Source: an uncultured Bacteroidales bacterium | Lineage (GTDB): Bacteria; Bacteroidota; Bacteroidia; Bacteroidales; Muribaculaceae | Assembly: GCA_902760865.1 (NCBI GenBank) | Contig: CACWID010000015.1 | Location: forward strand, 1 to 59,934 | DNA: 59,934 bases | Direction of reading: 5' to 3' | Shown here: positions 51,296-59,934 of the stretch, piece after piece | Layout of the letters: every line of letters begins with the position of its first letter | Position numbering within the stretch: position 1 is the stretch's first letter | Made by a program: the position numbers and the translations under genes | The notes under the pieces: generated by a model | Told to the model about the DNA's origin: nothing | Databases searched by the model: none | Seen by the model: the letters and a program-made list of their open reading frames with translations, nothing else

Positions 51296-52417
51296 ATGAA
51301 GAAATCGTTACTTATTTCATCACTGGTGGCCATGGCAGCGTTGACGGCAAATGCCGACAATTCGCCCTACATTGCCCACGTGTATGACTACATGCCGGCT
51401 CCCGGCCAATTTGTCAACGTATATCCGTCCTACAAGCCCGGTTATACCCAGGACAGCATCAACGCCCAGCTCGAGACCGCCCTGTGCGGCAAGTTGGGTG
51501 CCACTGTCAGCCTGGGCAGCTACGGCGGCTACATCGTCTTCGGCTTCGACCACCCGGTGATCAACAGGCACGGCTATGACGTGAAGATCTATGGCAATGC
51601 CATGCAGAGCCAGGCCGTGTCCGATCAGGCCGGCGGCAGCTGCGAACCCGGCATCATCATGGTGGGCGTGGACATGGACGACAACGGCATCCCCAGTGAG
51701 GGCGACATGTGGTACGAAATCAAGGGCGCCAACTACGACCAGTGCCTGCATGGCTACGAGGTGACTTATTACAAGCCCGACGAGGCCAAGCCCCGTGTGC
51801 CCCATGAGAGCTGGCGCTTTATCACCGATATGGAGTACGTCCAGTGGACCAGCAACGACCCTGACGAGTCCGACGGCTACGTGTGGCGCAATTCCTTCCA
51901 CAATCAGCCCTACTGGCCGCTATGGATCGAGGACACGGTGCTCACCTTCCGCGGCACCAAGTTGCCCAATCTGGCCGTCGACATGAGTGGCGGCAACGGC
52001 AACAACTGGTTTCAGCCATTCTTTGGCGAGGGCTATGTGGACAACCTGCCCAATGCCGATGAGCCCGGTTTCAAGATTGATTGGGCCATCGATGAGGACG
52101 GCAATCCCGTGAATCTTGACCACATCGACTTCGTCAAGGTCTATTGCGGCCAGTTGGCCTACTGTGGTTGGCTGGGCGAGACCTCGACCGAGGTGGGCGG
52201 GGCCGAAGACCTGCACCCCGATGCCAAGCCCTGGCTGCAGGGTGACGTGAACGATGACGGCACGGTGAATATCGCCGATGTGACCTCACTTATCAGGCTC
52301 TTGCTCAGCAGCCTGGTTACCGAAGATAATAAGGCTTTGGCCGACATCAATCATGACGGCAGCGTGAACATCGCCGACGTGACAGCATTAATCAACCAGT
52401 TATTGACCAAGAGATGA
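51296..52417 (+). CDS. secreted B12-locus surface protein with C-terminal dockerin (paralogue)
   Basis: 373 residues: signal peptide (MKKSLLISSLVAMAALTANA), a core with VSLGSYGGYIVFGFDHPVINRHGYDVKIYGNA and GSCEPGIIMVGVDMDDNGIPSEGDMWYEIKGANY, and a dockerin pair at 316-373. The core is clearly related to that of 40358-41572. Its last codon overlaps the next gene's start (ATGA), so both are translated together. Likely part of a cobalamin-binding surface set by context; direct function unknown. Confidence 0.78.
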   Translation: MKKSLLISSLVAMAALTANADNSPYIAHVYDYMPAPGQFVNVYPSYKPGYTQDSINAQLETALCGKLGATVSLGSYGGYIVFGFDHPVINRHGYDVKIYGNAMQSQAVSDQAGGSCEPGIIMVGVDMDDNGIPSEGDMWYEIKGANYDQCLHGYEVTYYKPDEAKPRVPHESWRFITDMEYVQWTSNDPDESDGYVWRNSFHNQPYWPLWIEDTVLTFRGTKLPNLAVDMSGGNGNNWFQPFFGEGYVDNLPNADEPGFKIDWAIDEDGNPVNLDHIDFVKVYCGQLAYCGWLGETSTEVGGAEDLHPDAKPWLQGDVNDDGTVNIADVTSLIRLLLSSLVTEDNKALADINHDGSVNIADVTALINQLLTKR

Positions 52418-54090
52418 AGAAGTTAGCGATCATACTGGCAGCGACCTTAGCTGCCGCGATGGGGTGGGCCCAGGACTTCACCTTCACCAACGGTGTGTTC
52501 TTCGTCAACGAGGACCGTTATGGCCCCAACCAGGGCTCCATCAATTTCTATGACTATGACTACAATGAGATGGAGTATAATGTCTATGCCATGGTCAATC
52601 CCGGCCTCAAACTGGGTGTCACATCCCAGCATGGACAGCTCTTCGGCGGCCGGTTCTTCGTCGTCAGCAAGCAGGCCAATAGCGCCGAAGCATCGGGCAG
52701 CACCATCGGCTCACGCCTGGCGGTACTCGATGCCGTCACGCTCAAGCAGCAGGGCAGCCTGTTGCGCTTCGGTGAGAATCCCGACAGCGTGTACGATGGC
52801 CGCTGCTATTGTGCTGTGAACAATGACAAGGGTTATATCGCCACGAGTGCGGGAATCTTTGTGCTGGATGTCAATGCGATGACCACACGCGGCCCCATCC
52901 ACGGCACCGAGTCGAGCGCCAATGGCGATTACAACAGCCTCTACTACGGCCAGTGCGGTGACATGGTGCGTTTCGGCCAGTATGTGTTTGCTGTGCAGCA
53001 GGGCAAGGGACTCCACGTCATCGACCCTGTCAGCGACGTGGTCGTGGCCACCTTGCCGTTCCCCGACATCGTCACGGTCTTTGTCACTGCTGGCGGTAAC
53101 CTCTATGTGGCAAACAACAGCCGTGAGATATACGACTATGGCAGTGGACCTTATGTGGCCGACTTCTCGCGCATCGACCCCGTCACTTTTGACGTGATGG
53201 AGGTGCATGAGCTGGGATCCCTTCACGGTGCCCTGAGCTCATGGGGCGCCTGGCGAGCCCGTATGCTCTGTGTGGATCCTGCCAGGGAACGGGTCTATTA
53301 CAGCTATGACGAGTTCCAGAACTACATCAGCTGCTATGACTTCATCACCCGCCAGTTCATCGACCGATACATCGAGCTGCCCGAGGCTGCCGAAATCAAC
53401 TGGGACGGCACGCAAAACATGCAGGGTCTCTATGCATCGGCGTTGAGCTTTGACCCGCACACGGGGGACCTTGTGGTTCAGACACTTGAGGCTGCCCCGA
53501 TGTATGCCTACCAGATCTTCAACCACAACTGGGTCCTCTTCTATGACGGTGCGACACGCGAGCTCAAGCGCCAGGTGCGACTCCAGGATGCCTATTGGTT
53601 CCCGGCAATGGCCGTTTACCCTGACCTGTATGCACCGACGGTGACCATCGGTGAACAGGTGTTGCATTCGGGCCAACAGGTGGCTATCGACCTGCTTGAT
53701 GCCGTCAGCGATGCCGACAACATGCCGTCGCTGGCCGTGACCACGGCTGTGAGTGCCAACCCGTCAGTCGTCAGGGCCACAGTGAGCGGCCTGCAGCTGG
53801 TTCTCGATGCCGTGGAGCCTGGCCGTACCACCGTCACCGTGACCACCGACAGCAACGGCCGCCTGGCCACCTGCTCATTCACGGTCTCGACGACTACAGC
53901 ACCGATTCCCGGTGACGTGGACATGAACGGCAAGGTGAATATCGCTGACGTGACAGCGCTTATCAATGTGATGCTCGGCTCGGTGCTCAACATTTATGAC
54001 ACGGGCGCATGCGACTTCGACCAGAACGGAAAAATCAATATCGACGACCTGACGGCTTTGATTGCCCTGATATTGAGAAATGGACATTAA
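52414..54090 (+). CDS. secreted BtuG-like propeller with Ig-like domain and C-terminal dockerin
   Basis: 558 residues. The signal peptide (MKKLAIILAATLAAAMGWAQ) has no lipobox cysteine. Residues about 22-390 form a DUF5074/BtuG-like propeller (GVFFVNEDRYGPNQGSINFYDYD; LKLGVTSQHGQLFGGRFFVVSKQ; LYVANNSREIYDYG), followed by an Ig-like part (about 405-498) and a dockerin pair (500-558: GDVDMNGKVNIADVT, CDFDQNGKINIDDLT). It starts inside the last codon of the gene before. In the first B12 operon the propeller is a lipoprotein; here the anchor seems to have been exchanged for a dockerin. Confidence 0.82.
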   Translation: MKKLAIILAATLAAAMGWAQDFTFTNGVFFVNEDRYGPNQGSINFYDYDYNEMEYNVYAMVNPGLKLGVTSQHGQLFGGRFFVVSKQANSAEASGSTIGSRLAVLDAVTLKQQGSLLRFGENPDSVYDGRCYCAVNNDKGYIATSAGIFVLDVNAMTTRGPIHGTESSANGDYNSLYYGQCGDMVRFGQYVFAVQQGKGLHVIDPVSDVVVATLPFPDIVTVFVTAGGNLYVANNSREIYDYGSGPYVADFSRIDPVTFDVMEVHELGSLHGALSSWGAWRARMLCVDPARERVYYSYDEFQNYISCYDFITRQFIDRYIELPEAAEINWDGTQNMQGLYASALSFDPHTGDLVVQTLEAAPMYAYQIFNHNWVLFYDGATRELKRQVRLQDAYWFPAMAVYPDLYAPTVTIGEQVLHSGQQVAIDLLDAVSDADNMPSLAVTTAVSANPSVVRATVSGLQLVLDAVEPGRTTVTVTTDSNGRLATCSFTVSTTTAPIPGDVDMNGKVNIADVTALINVMLGSVLNIYDTGACDFDQNGKINIDDLTALIALILRNGH

Positions 54091-55630: not shown

Positions 55631-57991
55631 ATGGCAAAAAACTTAGTTATCGTTGAGTCTCCTGCCAAGGCCAAGACCATTCAGAAGTTCCTCGGCAGCG
55701 ATTATAAGGTGATGTCCAGCTTCGGACACATCCGTGACCTTCACAAGAAGGACTTCAGTATCGATATCGAGAACGGATTCAAACCATTATATGAAATCCC
55801 CGAAGACAAGGAGGATCAGGTTAAGAAACTCAAGAGTGAGGCAGAAAAGGCTGATGTCGTCTGGCTCGCTAGTGATGAAGACCGCGAGGGAGAAGCCATT
55901 GCATGGCACCTGTTTGAGGTCCTGGGACTGAATCAGGAGAACACGCGCCGCATCGTTTTCCATGAAATCACCGAGCCGGCCATTCTTGAGGCGATCAAGA
56001 ATCCGCGCAACATCGACCTCAATCTGGTGGATGCGCAGCAGGCTAGACGCGTCCTGGACCGTATCGTGGGCTTTGAGCTCTCGCCGGTGCTCTGGCGCAA
56101 GATTATGCCGGGTCTGTCGGCAGGCCGTGTCCAGAGTGTGGCCGTCAGGTTGGTCGCTGAGCGCGAGAAGGAGATCAAGGCGTTTGTTTCTGAGCCCTAT
56201 TACCGCGTTGTGGCACAGTTCGTCACCAATCAGAATGCCGAACTCACAGCTGACCTCAACAAGCATCTGCCTGACAGCGAAACGGCGAACAAGTTCCTCG
56301 AGGACTGCCGCTTGGCACAGTACAAGGTCAGCGACGTGACGGTCAAGCCGATGAAGCGTTCTCCGGCTCCGCCCTTCACGACGAGTACCCTGCAGCAGGA
56401 AGCCGCACGCAAACTCGGCCTCTCCGTCAAGCAGACGATGAGGCTTGCCCAGCGCCTGTACGAGGAAGGTCTCATCACCTACATGCGTACCGACTCGGTC
56501 AACCTGAGCAAGCTGGCGCTCGGTGCCATCAGCAAGGAAATCAAGGAGAACATCGGTGAGCAGTACTACAAGGCACGCCGTTACCGCACCACCAGCAAGG
56601 GGGCACAGGAGGCTCACGAGGCCATCCGACCCACCTACATCAGCAACCATACCATCAGCGGAACGCCTCAGGAGAAGAAACTCTATGACCTGATATGGAA
56701 GCGTACCGTGGCCTCTCAGATGGCTGATGCCGAGCTCGAGAAGACCACTGCAAACATCTCTGTGACGGGTCGCAAGGAACTCTTTGTCGCCGAGGGTGAG
56801 GTCGTGAAGTTTGATGGCTTCCTCAAGGTCTACTTCGAGAGCACTGATGACCAGTCTCAGAACTCCAGGGAGCTGAGGACCCTGCCGCAGCTCTCTACCG
56901 GTGACGAACTCAAGGCATCGTCGGTGAGCGCCATCCAGCGCTTCACCCAGCAGCCCAACAGGTACACTGAGGCTTCGCTCGTCCGCAGGCTCGAGGAGCT
57001 GGGTATCGGACGTCCTTCGACCTATGCGCCCATCATCTCCACCATCCAGGACCGCAACTACGTCGAGAAGGGCGAGGACAAGGGACACCGCCGTGAGTAT
57101 GAAATCATCACCCTCAAGGACGGCAAGATCACGACCGACAAGAAGTCCGAGGTCTTCGGTGTGGAAAAGGGCAAACTCATCCCCACTGATGTCGGTATGG
57201 TTGTCAATGACTTCCTGGTGAAGTATTTCCCCTCGATTATGGATTATAACTTCACTGCCAGGGTCGAGAATGAGTTTGATGAGGTGGCCAAGGGCAACGT
57301 GGTTTGGAACAAGGAAATCGCCGACTTCTATGACGGATTCCATCCCAGCATAAGCCAGGTTTCATCACTCAGGCTCGAGCACAAGGTGGGTGAGAGGCTC
57401 CTGGGCAATGACCCCAAGACGGGTCTCCCGGTCATGGTAAAGATCGGTCGCTATGGACCCCTGGTGCAGATGGGTACTGCCGATGATAAGACGAAGCCGC
57501 GTTTCGCGTCCCTGCAGAAGGGGCAAAGCATCGAGACCATCACCCTGGAGGAGGCGCTCAAGCTGTTTGACCTCCCGCGTGAACTTGGCGATTTCGAGGG
57601 CTCAACCGTCACCATCGGCGTGGGGCACTATGGCCCCTATGTGAAGCACAACGGCAAGTATGTGTCCATCCCCAAGGACATGTCGCCCACGGCGATTTCG
57701 CTTGACGAGGCTATCGAACTTATCATGGCCCAGCGTGAGAACGAGGCCAAGAAGGTGCTCAAGACCTTTGACGAGGAACCTGAACTCATGGTCCTGAACG
57801 GACGCTACGGACCCTATATCGTCTATAAGAAACAGAACATCAAGATACCCAAGGGTAAGGACGCCGAGGCGCTTACCCTCGAGGAGTGCAGGGCGATTGT
57901 GGCCGACGAGGCCAATTTCTCGAAAGGTACCACTCGCAAACGGGCTACACGGGCCGCTTCTGGCAGCAAGAAAACGAACAGTAAAAAGTAA
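55631..57991 (+). CDS. topA: DNA topoisomerase I
   Basis: 786 residues. The TOPRIM domain opens the protein (LVIVESPAKAKTIQKFLG, DEDREGEAIAWHL), and the catalytic tyrosine is Y284 in GLITYMRTDS. The C-terminus has GRYGPYV-type repeats (KIGRYGPLVQMG, VGHYGPYVKHNGKY, NGRYGPYIVYKKQ) in place of zinc fingers and ends in a Lys/Arg-rich tail, as usual in this phylum. It relaxes negative supercoils. Confidence 0.98.
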   Translation: MAKNLVIVESPAKAKTIQKFLGSDYKVMSSFGHIRDLHKKDFSIDIENGFKPLYEIPEDKEDQVKKLKSEAEKADVVWLASDEDREGEAIAWHLFEVLGLNQENTRRIVFHEITEPAILEAIKNPRNIDLNLVDAQQARRVLDRIVGFELSPVLWRKIMPGLSAGRVQSVAVRLVAEREKEIKAFVSEPYYRVVAQFVTNQNAELTADLNKHLPDSETANKFLEDCRLAQYKVSDVTVKPMKRSPAPPFTTSTLQQEAARKLGLSVKQTMRLAQRLYEEGLITYMRTDSVNLSKLALGAISKEIKENIGEQYYKARRYRTTSKGAQEAHEAIRPTYISNHTISGTPQEKKLYDLIWKRTVASQMADAELEKTTANISVTGRKELFVAEGEVVKFDGFLKVYFESTDDQSQNSRELRTLPQLSTGDELKASSVSAIQRFTQQPNRYTEASLVRRLEELGIGRPSTYAPIISTIQDRNYVEKGEDKGHRREYEIITLKDGKITTDKKSEVFGVEKGKLIPTDVGMVVNDFLVKYFPSIMDYNFTARVENEFDEVAKGNVVWNKEIADFYDGFHPSISQVSSLRLEHKVGERLLGNDPKTGLPVMVKIGRYGPLVQMGTADDKTKPRFASLQKGQSIETITLEEALKLFDLPRELGDFEGSTVTIGVGHYGPYVKHNGKYVSIPKDMSPTAISLDEAIELIMAQRENEAKKVLKTFDEEPELMVLNGRYGPYIVYKKQNIKIPKGKDAEALTLEECRAIVADEANFSKGTTRKRATRAASGSKKTNSKK

Positions 57992-58338: not shown

Positions 58339-59739
58339 ATGTCTTTTTTCAAATCTATCAAGAGCGCCTTTGGTGGCTCTGACGAGGAGTATGATGTGTT
58401 CGGACAGACCACTACATTTGTGAACCCCTTCAGCAAGGACAAGAATGCTGTCGATAAAGAGCGCGTGCTGGATGAAGTGCAGATCGAGGTCGATAAGCAA
58501 GAAGAATATACAATCGATGCCGAGTTCGCCGACAAGGCGGTACGGCTCATGAATGAGCACACGGCTGCCGTCATCGACATGCTCAAGGGCTCTTGGAAGA
58601 AGGAGCGCGAGGATCTATTGAAGAAGGTCGAGCAGGCCGACAAGTTGGTCGAGGAGACCAAGGAGAAGATGCAGGTCAACGAGGCCAACAGGCGCCAGGC
58701 GCAGAACAGGGCAACGGACCTGACCAACAAGATCCTGGAGCTTGAGTCGCAGCTTGAGAAGACCGACATCGACAAGAAGAGCCTCGAGAGCCGTCTCAAG
58801 GCCATGGAGGTGAAGGGCGAGAACAGCGAGGAACTCAACGCCAAGATTGAGGAGCTGAATGCTACTATCGAGGATCTCAAGAAGCAGGTAGAGGAGCGTG
58901 ACGCCGAGATCGAGCGCCGCGACAACATGCCGATGCCCGCTACCGACGGCCCGACCGTAGAGCAGCTGCAGCAGCAGGTGGAGCAGCGCGACGAGCTGAT
59001 TGAGCGCCTGCGTGGCAACGTCAGCGAACTTGAGGAGCGTCTCGCCGCCGCAGCCGAGGAACTCAAGAACGCCGAGGAGCTCCAGAAGGCCGTTGAGCAG
59101 GTAGAGGAGTTTAAGGACAAGAAGAATTCTGAGATATCGTCACTCAGGCAGCAGATCATCGACCTGCAGCGTCGCTCGTCACAGTTTGACGAACTTCGCA
59201 AGGCCAACATCGTCCTCAAGGATGAGAACGATGCGCTGCAGAAGAATATCGAGCAGCTCGAGCAGGCCGCAAAGCAGAATGCCGAGGTGCAGAACAGGCG
59301 CAGCATTGAGACCGGAAACCTCATCGACGGACTCAAGCAGCAACTCGCTTCGGTGAGCGCCGTGGCCGAGGACTTCAAGCGCAAGTACAACTCGTTGACA
59401 GTAGACGGCAACGAGAAGGCCGCTAACTTCGCCAAGATTACCGGCGAGCGCGACGACGCGAGGGCAGAGCTCAAGCGCACCCAGGTCACCCTGCAGAAGA
59501 AGCAGCATGAGGCCCAGGCCATGAGTGACGCCATCGCCGAGAAGGACGAGCGCATCGCAGCCCTCAACCGCCAGATTGAGGAACTGAAAGCCGCCGCCCT
59601 GCGTGCAGAGCAGCAGAAGGATGTCCCCTTTGCCAACGACGATCCCGCCATGAGTGCAATCGACGACATCGACTGGGAAGATGACGGTTCGCTGCCTCCT
59701 CATCCCGGCGAGGACCCGCGTCAACTCTCTTTGTTCTAA
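58339..59739 (+). CDS. long coiled-coil protein ending in a sliding-clamp-binding motif (QLSLF)
   Basis: 466 residues, no signal peptide or membrane helix. The first 75 residues are mixed (FKSIKSAFGGSDEEYDVFGQTTTFVNPFSKD). From about 90 to 425 heptad-like Leu/Glu/Lys/Gln repeats indicate coiled coils, with a Pro-rich break near residue 196 (NMPMPATDGPT). The end is acidic and unstructured (AIDDIDWEDDGSLPPHPGEDP) and closes with QLSLF at 462-466, identical to the QL[S/D]LF consensus for DnaN binding. It follows topA. I do not recognise the family. The role, perhaps in replication or repair at the clamp, is inferred only from this motif; a chance match or a structural coil protein are alternatives. 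Confidence 0.75.
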   Translation: MSFFKSIKSAFGGSDEEYDVFGQTTTFVNPFSKDKNAVDKERVLDEVQIEVDKQEEYTIDAEFADKAVRLMNEHTAAVIDMLKGSWKKEREDLLKKVEQADKLVEETKEKMQVNEANRRQAQNRATDLTNKILELESQLEKTDIDKKSLESRLKAMEVKGENSEELNAKIEELNATIEDLKKQVEERDAEIERRDNMPMPATDGPTVEQLQQQVEQRDELIERLRGNVSELEERLAAAAEELKNAEELQKAVEQVEEFKDKKNSEISSLRQQIIDLQRRSSQFDELRKANIVLKDENDALQKNIEQLEQAAKQNAEVQNRRSIETGNLIDGLKQQLASVSAVAEDFKRKYNSLTVDGNEKAANFAKITGERDDARAELKRTQVTLQKKQHEAQAMSDAIAEKDERIAALNRQIEELKAAALRAEQQKDVPFANDDPAMSAIDDIDWEDDGSLPPHPGEDPRQLSLF

Positions 59740-59753
59740 AATAACTTTTCTGC

Positions 59754-59799
59754 GTCATCGGGGAGGCTTGCGTCAGCGGGCCTCCCCGATGACTGTTTT
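59754..59799 (+). terminator. terminator of the coiled-coil gene
   Basis: GTCATCGGGGAGGC (59754-59767) and GCCTCCCCGATGAC (59780-59793) form a perfect 14-bp stem followed by TGTTTT. Confidence 0.93.
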
Positions 59800-59924: not shown

Positions 59925-59934
59925 CATCGCTTTT

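Follow-up and report, generated by a model that had tools for sequence, protein, structure and literature searches.

A Bacteroidales coiled-coil protein family with a conserved C-terminal peptide of the sliding-clamp-binding type

What could be the role of a long coiled-coil protein that ends with the same five residues by which a replicative polymerase binds the sliding clamp? The question is raised by the window G000:C15:1-59934, the whole stretch of 59,934 nucleotides analysed here from an uncultured Bacteroidales bacterium, in which the open reading frame (ORF) 58339-59739 (+) encodes a coiled-coil protein that we named X. We propose, with a probability of about 0.55, that X is a homo-oligomeric coiled-coil tether of the sliding clamp, with its N-terminal tip on a second site, which gathers newly replicated DNA. 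The proposal is based on the predicted architecture of X, the selection on its tail, the core shared by the tail and the polymerase motif in the same genomes, and the conservation of the tip; from these we infer DnaN binding, oligomerisation, membrane attachment and the cellular role. In the following, f numbers indicate families, G genomes and L loci, c1 is a gene encoding a receiver/PPDK_N protein, and statements followed by a PMC number refer to the available parts of the cited papers.

The C-terminal peptide and the clamp motif of the polymerase

The C-terminus of X reads DWEDDGSLPPHPGEDPRQLSLF-stop, PRQLSLF being the final residues of the ORF translation, and conforms to the pentapeptide QL[S/D]LF / QxxLF of clamp-binding proteins. 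The bacterial clamp motif has been described as QL(S/D)LF and, more generally, as QxxLF (PMC9690074, PMC12309361), and an identical C-terminal QLSLF is the clamp motif of Bacillus subtilis PolC, with a peptide KD of 3.8 µM, though PolC differs from X in being a polymerase (PMC12309361).

An earlier reading of this DNA, made from its letters alone (the sequence-only reading), had pointed to the orthologues as the place to check the motif, and it is there that the tail proved to be kept. The homologue set at E 1e-6 consisted of 101 distinct sequences, 16 cut by the end of their stretch and 85 with a complete end; a tail Q[LMI]xL[FW], with no more than two residues after it, was present in 84 of the 85, the sole exception being L144 (f65), and the count became 84/86 once the second f65 orthologue, L226, found by position and not by profile, was added. 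Identity among the homologues keeping the tail drops to about 20%. Profiles deprived of the last quarter of the alignment columns recovered 101/101 homologues (85 complete and 16 cut), showing that the set had not been selected by the motif. The same tail-blind profiles also matched L151, with 34 bits and no tail; it was left out of the family and taken as coil noise.

Among 35 distinct close orthologues the peptide stays QLSLF, apart from one QLTLF (a single S-to-T change), while the five tail positions use 2, 4, 5, 5 and 2 codon types. Synonymous codon changes at every tail position, with the residues constant, are strong evidence that selection acts on the peptide. In alignment A4 (35 rows) M1, Q462 and L465, and no others, are invariant columns; in alignment A5 (25 rows) the invariant columns are N77 and two of the motif, Q519 and L522. 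Eight aligned relatives of type B end in QMSLF, four with one extra residue. The divergent tails end with W rather than F in 21 of 42 cases; these members fit the relaxed motif only, and W is also found at the polymerase site of f22.

A scan of the own genome with a degenerate pattern for the tail and stop gave 7 raw matches, compared to 18 for the reversed control, so the pattern alone is not enriched. Four of these were looked at more closely. The window gene closes a long open frame of 467 codons and is the only one to do so; QIFLF and QFGLF stand before the stop in two others, whose frames have 32 and 15 codons, respectively, and the fourth had an internal stop. On the evidence of the sequence comparisons, the tail of X is not a chance match, because 84/85 homologues keep it and synonymous variation occurs at each of its positions.

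The motif of X was compared with that of DnaE. The DnaE set comprised 22 chosen genomes and 25 listed loci; two partial G372 matches (L289, L290) were left out, and the remaining 23 loci were aligned with the own DnaE (L194) in 24 rows from 23 Bacteroidales genomes. The X family is carried by 21 of these 23 genomes, the exceptions being G066 and G159, in whose families (f7 and f99) no X was found; in two others (G125, G217, f65) the X orthologue is tail-less. The own DnaE motif is QNSLFG, and the aligned position reads [S/T]L[F/W] in 24/24 rows, with Q in first position in 6/24 (own, G066, G013, G087, G191, G272). The site is SLW in the three f22 rows, and X of f22 also ends with SLW. The own genome also has a gene for DnaN, the cognate clamp being L174:8642-9757.

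Predicted architecture and extent of the family

The features of the locus, all on the + strand, are the following:

58339..59736 (+), X coding sequence: 466 aa, ATG start, stop codon 59737-59739; backed by orthologues
58339..58377 (+), N-terminal basic amphipathic helix, residues 1-13, MSFFKSIKSAFGG: possible membrane-targeting tip, the membrane role being putative
58408..58446 (+), conserved linear motif, residues 24-36, TTTFVNPFSKDKN: from alignment and codon comparison
58519..59601 (+), predicted coiled-coil rod, residues 61-421, with a break at 196-206: from AlphaFold2 and heptad registers
59650..59691 (+), conserved acidic-tryptophan motif, residues 438-451, MSAIDDIDWEDDGS: from alignment and codon comparison
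59722..59736 (+), clamp-binding-type pentapeptide QLSLF, residues 462-466, C-terminal: from homologue and codon comparison
59754..59793 (+), intrinsic terminator-like hairpin of 18 pairs, 3' of the X gene: consensus match only
55631..57991 (+), topA, upstream neighbour of X: ORF whose homologue matches topoisomerase families

The structure of X was modelled by AlphaFold2 with the 35-row alignment as input. From the N- to the C-terminus the prediction gives a short helix, a disordered linker, a coil of about 360 residues, an acidic linker and QLSLF, with helices at residues 3-10, 61-195 and 207-421 and low-confidence stretches at 12-28, 34-60 and 419-459; the predicted local distance difference test (pLDDT) score was below 50 at 419-459 and 464-466. 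The sequence-only reading had described a QLSLF end after an acidic flexible stretch, which is confirmed by the ORF translation and by the low-confidence linker 419-459; the long coil that it proposed also stands, with a length of about 360 residues (61-195, 207-421) instead of about 330. In the window model the tail is placed in an exposed flexible segment, following the linker. The model of the f103 homologue L129 differs in that a predicted helix (485-512), which comes after a low-confidence stretch (399-475), precedes the motif. Heptad registers cover the helical part of X, with several shifts.

An NP(F/W) motif within 58408-58446 is shared by many of the X proteins in the window's genus, including type B, and is missing, for example, in L068, L070, L084 and L088; it may be a further docking motif.

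The first 13 residues of 56 family rows have a mean hydrophobic moment of 0.448 and a mean charge of +2.3, whereas 193 control ORFs, taken from these same loci, average 0.243 and +0.3. A moment of at least 0.4 together with a charge of at least +2 was found in 45/56 family rows and 8/193 control ORFs. The family rows are related, and the p-value for family against controls therefore overstates the significance. For the membrane helices of RocS and MinD the reported values are charge +2 and moment 0.245, and +2 and 0.424, respectively (PMC13042908), to be read beside our own calculation for X, in which segment or scale may differ. The N-terminal tip of X looks like a membrane-targeting helix; a dock on a protein would be equally possible.

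The X family was found in only part of the Bacteroidales in the genome samples searched. A single-sequence search gave X matches in 51 of 101 genomes, and a scan of genome contigs revealed 34 X orthologues, whose titles are all of uncultured or metagenome-assembled Prevotellaceae, Muribaculaceae, Porphyromonadaceae or Bacteroidales. Within the window's genus, divergent relatives are 22-33% identical to the window X and have four parts in common, namely an MSFFxxLKRAFGF-like N-terminal helix, VNPF, DDIDWL and a QLSLF-like tail, not every part being present in each row; profiles A1 and A3 extend the family to f22, f28, f58, f84 and f103. Weak profile matches whose loci were inspected had neither the N-terminal nor the C-terminal features and were for this reason discarded as coil noise, those without a locus falling outside that inspection. 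A type B profile matched nothing in the window's own genome; it was run with no positive control and so shows little. In the f22 genome G345 we observed two X copies in similar neighbourhoods, on C18 and C21 (L184, L185).

Pfam and NCBIfam gave no model at cut-off for the X family, generic coil matches lying below cut-off, in agreement with the sequence-only reading, in which a long coiled coil tethered to DnaN was no known replication factor. A PDB sequence search returned 32 matches up to E 0.01, which are coils by their names and ranges, and Foldseek with the L129 model as query gave no match. X as an SMC/Rad50 protein or a fragment of one was rejected, since the matches were partial and within the coil (SMC 28.3 bits, against a curated 567) and no ATPase heads were found. 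Scans of viral contigs found no X relative and gave no support to a phage origin. No paper on an X-like protein was found among the papers listed, judged by titles and abstract openings, with most subscription journals outside the scope of that search, and a query with a guessed, unconfirmed B. thetaiotaomicron locus tag gave nothing. The family therefore appears to be new, having no family model at cut-off and no description in the literature searched. The clamp motif itself is already known; what is new is a coiled-coil carrier with an amphipathic tip and no recognisable enzyme domain.

A proposed clamp tether and its alternatives

In the proposed mechanism, QLSLF on its flexible acidic linker would dock into the hydrophobic pocket of DnaN, the coil would join two or more such tails and the N-terminal basic amphipathic helix, about 360 residues off, would attach elsewhere, the simplest second site being the inner membrane. 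In this way X would gather the new DNA marked by DnaN and would keep sister forks, or nascent sisters, joined to one another or at the membrane. The narrower version in which X is a clamp-to-membrane tether, anchoring freshly replicated DNA at the inner membrane, is more tentative, and we consider it rather doubtful in this strict form.

Two known systems resemble parts of this design. CrfC of E. coli is a homo-oligomer with a clamp motif (QLALP), binds several clamps and holds sister forks together for an even nucleoid partition (PMC6374313); unlike X, for which no GTPase domain was seen among the Pfam/NCBIfam matches, it is a dynamin-like GTPase, with the motif near its N-terminus. RocS, a chromosome partitioning protein of Streptococcus, is described as a coiled-coil oligomer joining chromosome and membrane, one end of which carries a DNA-side handle and the opposite end a short basic amphipathic helix (PMC13042908). 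Compared by description, X differs in that a clamp-type peptide replaces the DNA-binding domain and the amphipathic helix is N-terminal, whereas the membrane helix of RocS is C-terminal; moreover, Pfam found no RocS-type N-terminal helix-turn-helix in X. X has the defining features of neither CrfC nor RocS.

To our knowledge, the coupling between replication and chromosome organisation is little understood in Bacteroidales, and X may be an unrecognised part of the handling of new DNA in these bacteria. A family whose most constrained residues resemble a clamp contact offers a direct handle on this coupling. Were the clamp-to-membrane tether correct, replication would be linked to chromosome positioning through the sliding clamp as a handle, in place of DNA sequence; should the membrane tip prove real, X would serve segregation and would recognise newly replicated DNA by the clamp and not by its sequence.

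Several observations weigh against the tether. Firstly, both f65 genomes examined (G125, G217) have shortened X orthologues, of 325 or 293 aa, downstream of c1. These proteins (L225:316-1290 and L226) have neither the clamp tail nor the tryptophan motif, keep a similar N-terminal start and a SERIHDLE-like stretch, and no tail was found nearby in the other two frames of the strand, indicating that the tail can be lost along with part of the coil. Orthologues keeping the coil and losing the motif had been named in the sequence-only reading as the case that would speak against a clamp contact; they exist in f65 (2/2 genomes), as shortened proteins, and among no other complete homologues. Secondly, the global 3.5-residue periodicity of the X coil is weak (186 of 2000 shuffles reached the same level), and single-segment shuffles of the tip gave a median p of 0.12, with the start codon chosen to favour the score, so that in individual proteins the amphipathic arrangement does not clearly exceed that of shuffles. 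Thirdly, the first residue of the DnaE motif is not Q in 18/24 rows, so X and DnaE agree in the core only; X keeps the stricter motif. In addition, topA is the only replication gene among the X neighbours identified, and those other than c1 are housekeeping genes. Finally, strong X matches (E 1e-15 or better, own genome included), counted among the listed rows, occurred in 22/296 Bacteroidales genomes, and in a phylum sample of 198 genomes the best match outside the own genome, 1.5e-6, was read as a generic coil. X is therefore no core factor, and on the same counts a fork factor general to Bacteroidetes was rejected.

The main rival to the tether is a control of DnaA like that exerted by YabA or Hda, in which X would be an initiation brake bringing DnaA to the clamp behind the fork, where it would be inactivated or sequestered. 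YabA of B. subtilis is a helical hub that binds both DnaN and DnaA and resembles X in having a helical bundle, flexible linkers and several DnaN-binding ends (PMC4705661). Only one Bac_DnaA-family match turned up in the own genome (about 95% complete), with no sign of an Hda-like paralogue, by a search whose ability to detect Hda is not established. By contrast, YabA contacts DnaN through a zinc-binding C-terminal domain, whereas X presents a linear peptide, contains zero cysteines and gave no Pfam or NCBIfam match to a zinc-binding domain of this type; the restriction of strong matches to 22/296 genomes and the lack of any positional link of X to dnaA among the loci seen also speak against a brake, which we regard as improbable.

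Equally improbable, in our estimate, is that X acts as a scaffold or regulatory target of c1, the clamp contact being one output of a signalling pair. The c1 product, of about 980-1020 aa, has a receiver domain and a PPDK_N ATP-binding domain, and its gene immediately precedes X in one or more genomes each of f1, f22, f28, f58, f84 and f103, as it does the two f65 orthologues. In a second set of loci c1 was present in 15/19, directly upstream of X in 14 and with one ORF between in L180, the four loci without it (L183, L184, L185, L193) all being f22. The first set, however, had c1 near X in 12/28 loci only; the other 16 were eight type B loci, six with topA directly upstream of X (L067, L077, L085, L087, L088 and the window-type L092) and two with neither gene (L069, at a contig end, and L078). 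Moreover, c1 (e.g., L070:2171-5134) is far wider than X: it is present in 245/296 Bacteroidales genomes, and the search did not reveal it in the window's own genome, where X is retained. Inspection by eye of the gene after c1 at 39 loci, in families with no strong X profile match, revealed no X-like protein besides the two f65 loci.

That the tail binds a partner other than DnaN, such as a protein with a similar hydrophobic pocket, by convergence on the clamp consensus, is the least probable alternative: the 21/42 divergent tails ending with W would favour it, but the f22 polymerase site is itself SLW and QxxLF is the motif described for bacterial clamps (PMC9690074, PMC12309361).

Neighbouring genes and other observations

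The sequence-only reading had noted that X sits next to topA. This is correct for the window (55631-57991), but the link does not extend far, as topA adjoins X in part of the window's genus only and lies one gene beyond X in the f58 loci L176 and L191, none being seen near X in the f58 locus L182; c1 is the more widely conserved neighbour. On this distribution, a partnership of X with topA was rejected.

All 34 contigs with X orthologues end 172-662 bases past the gene, and in 1 of about 8 distinct loci searched, from a window-type genome, 16S ribosomal RNA (rRNA) begins 530 bases after X (L055:5952-6015, the same locus as L014:3452-3515). These distances point to an rRNA operon as the probable assembly break of the X-bearing contigs, including that of the window, which ends at 59934.

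Elsewhere in the window, at 51296-54090, we observed two secreted-looking ORFs that end in paired GDVNxDGxVNIADVTxLI-like repeats, which we take to resemble dockerin repeats.
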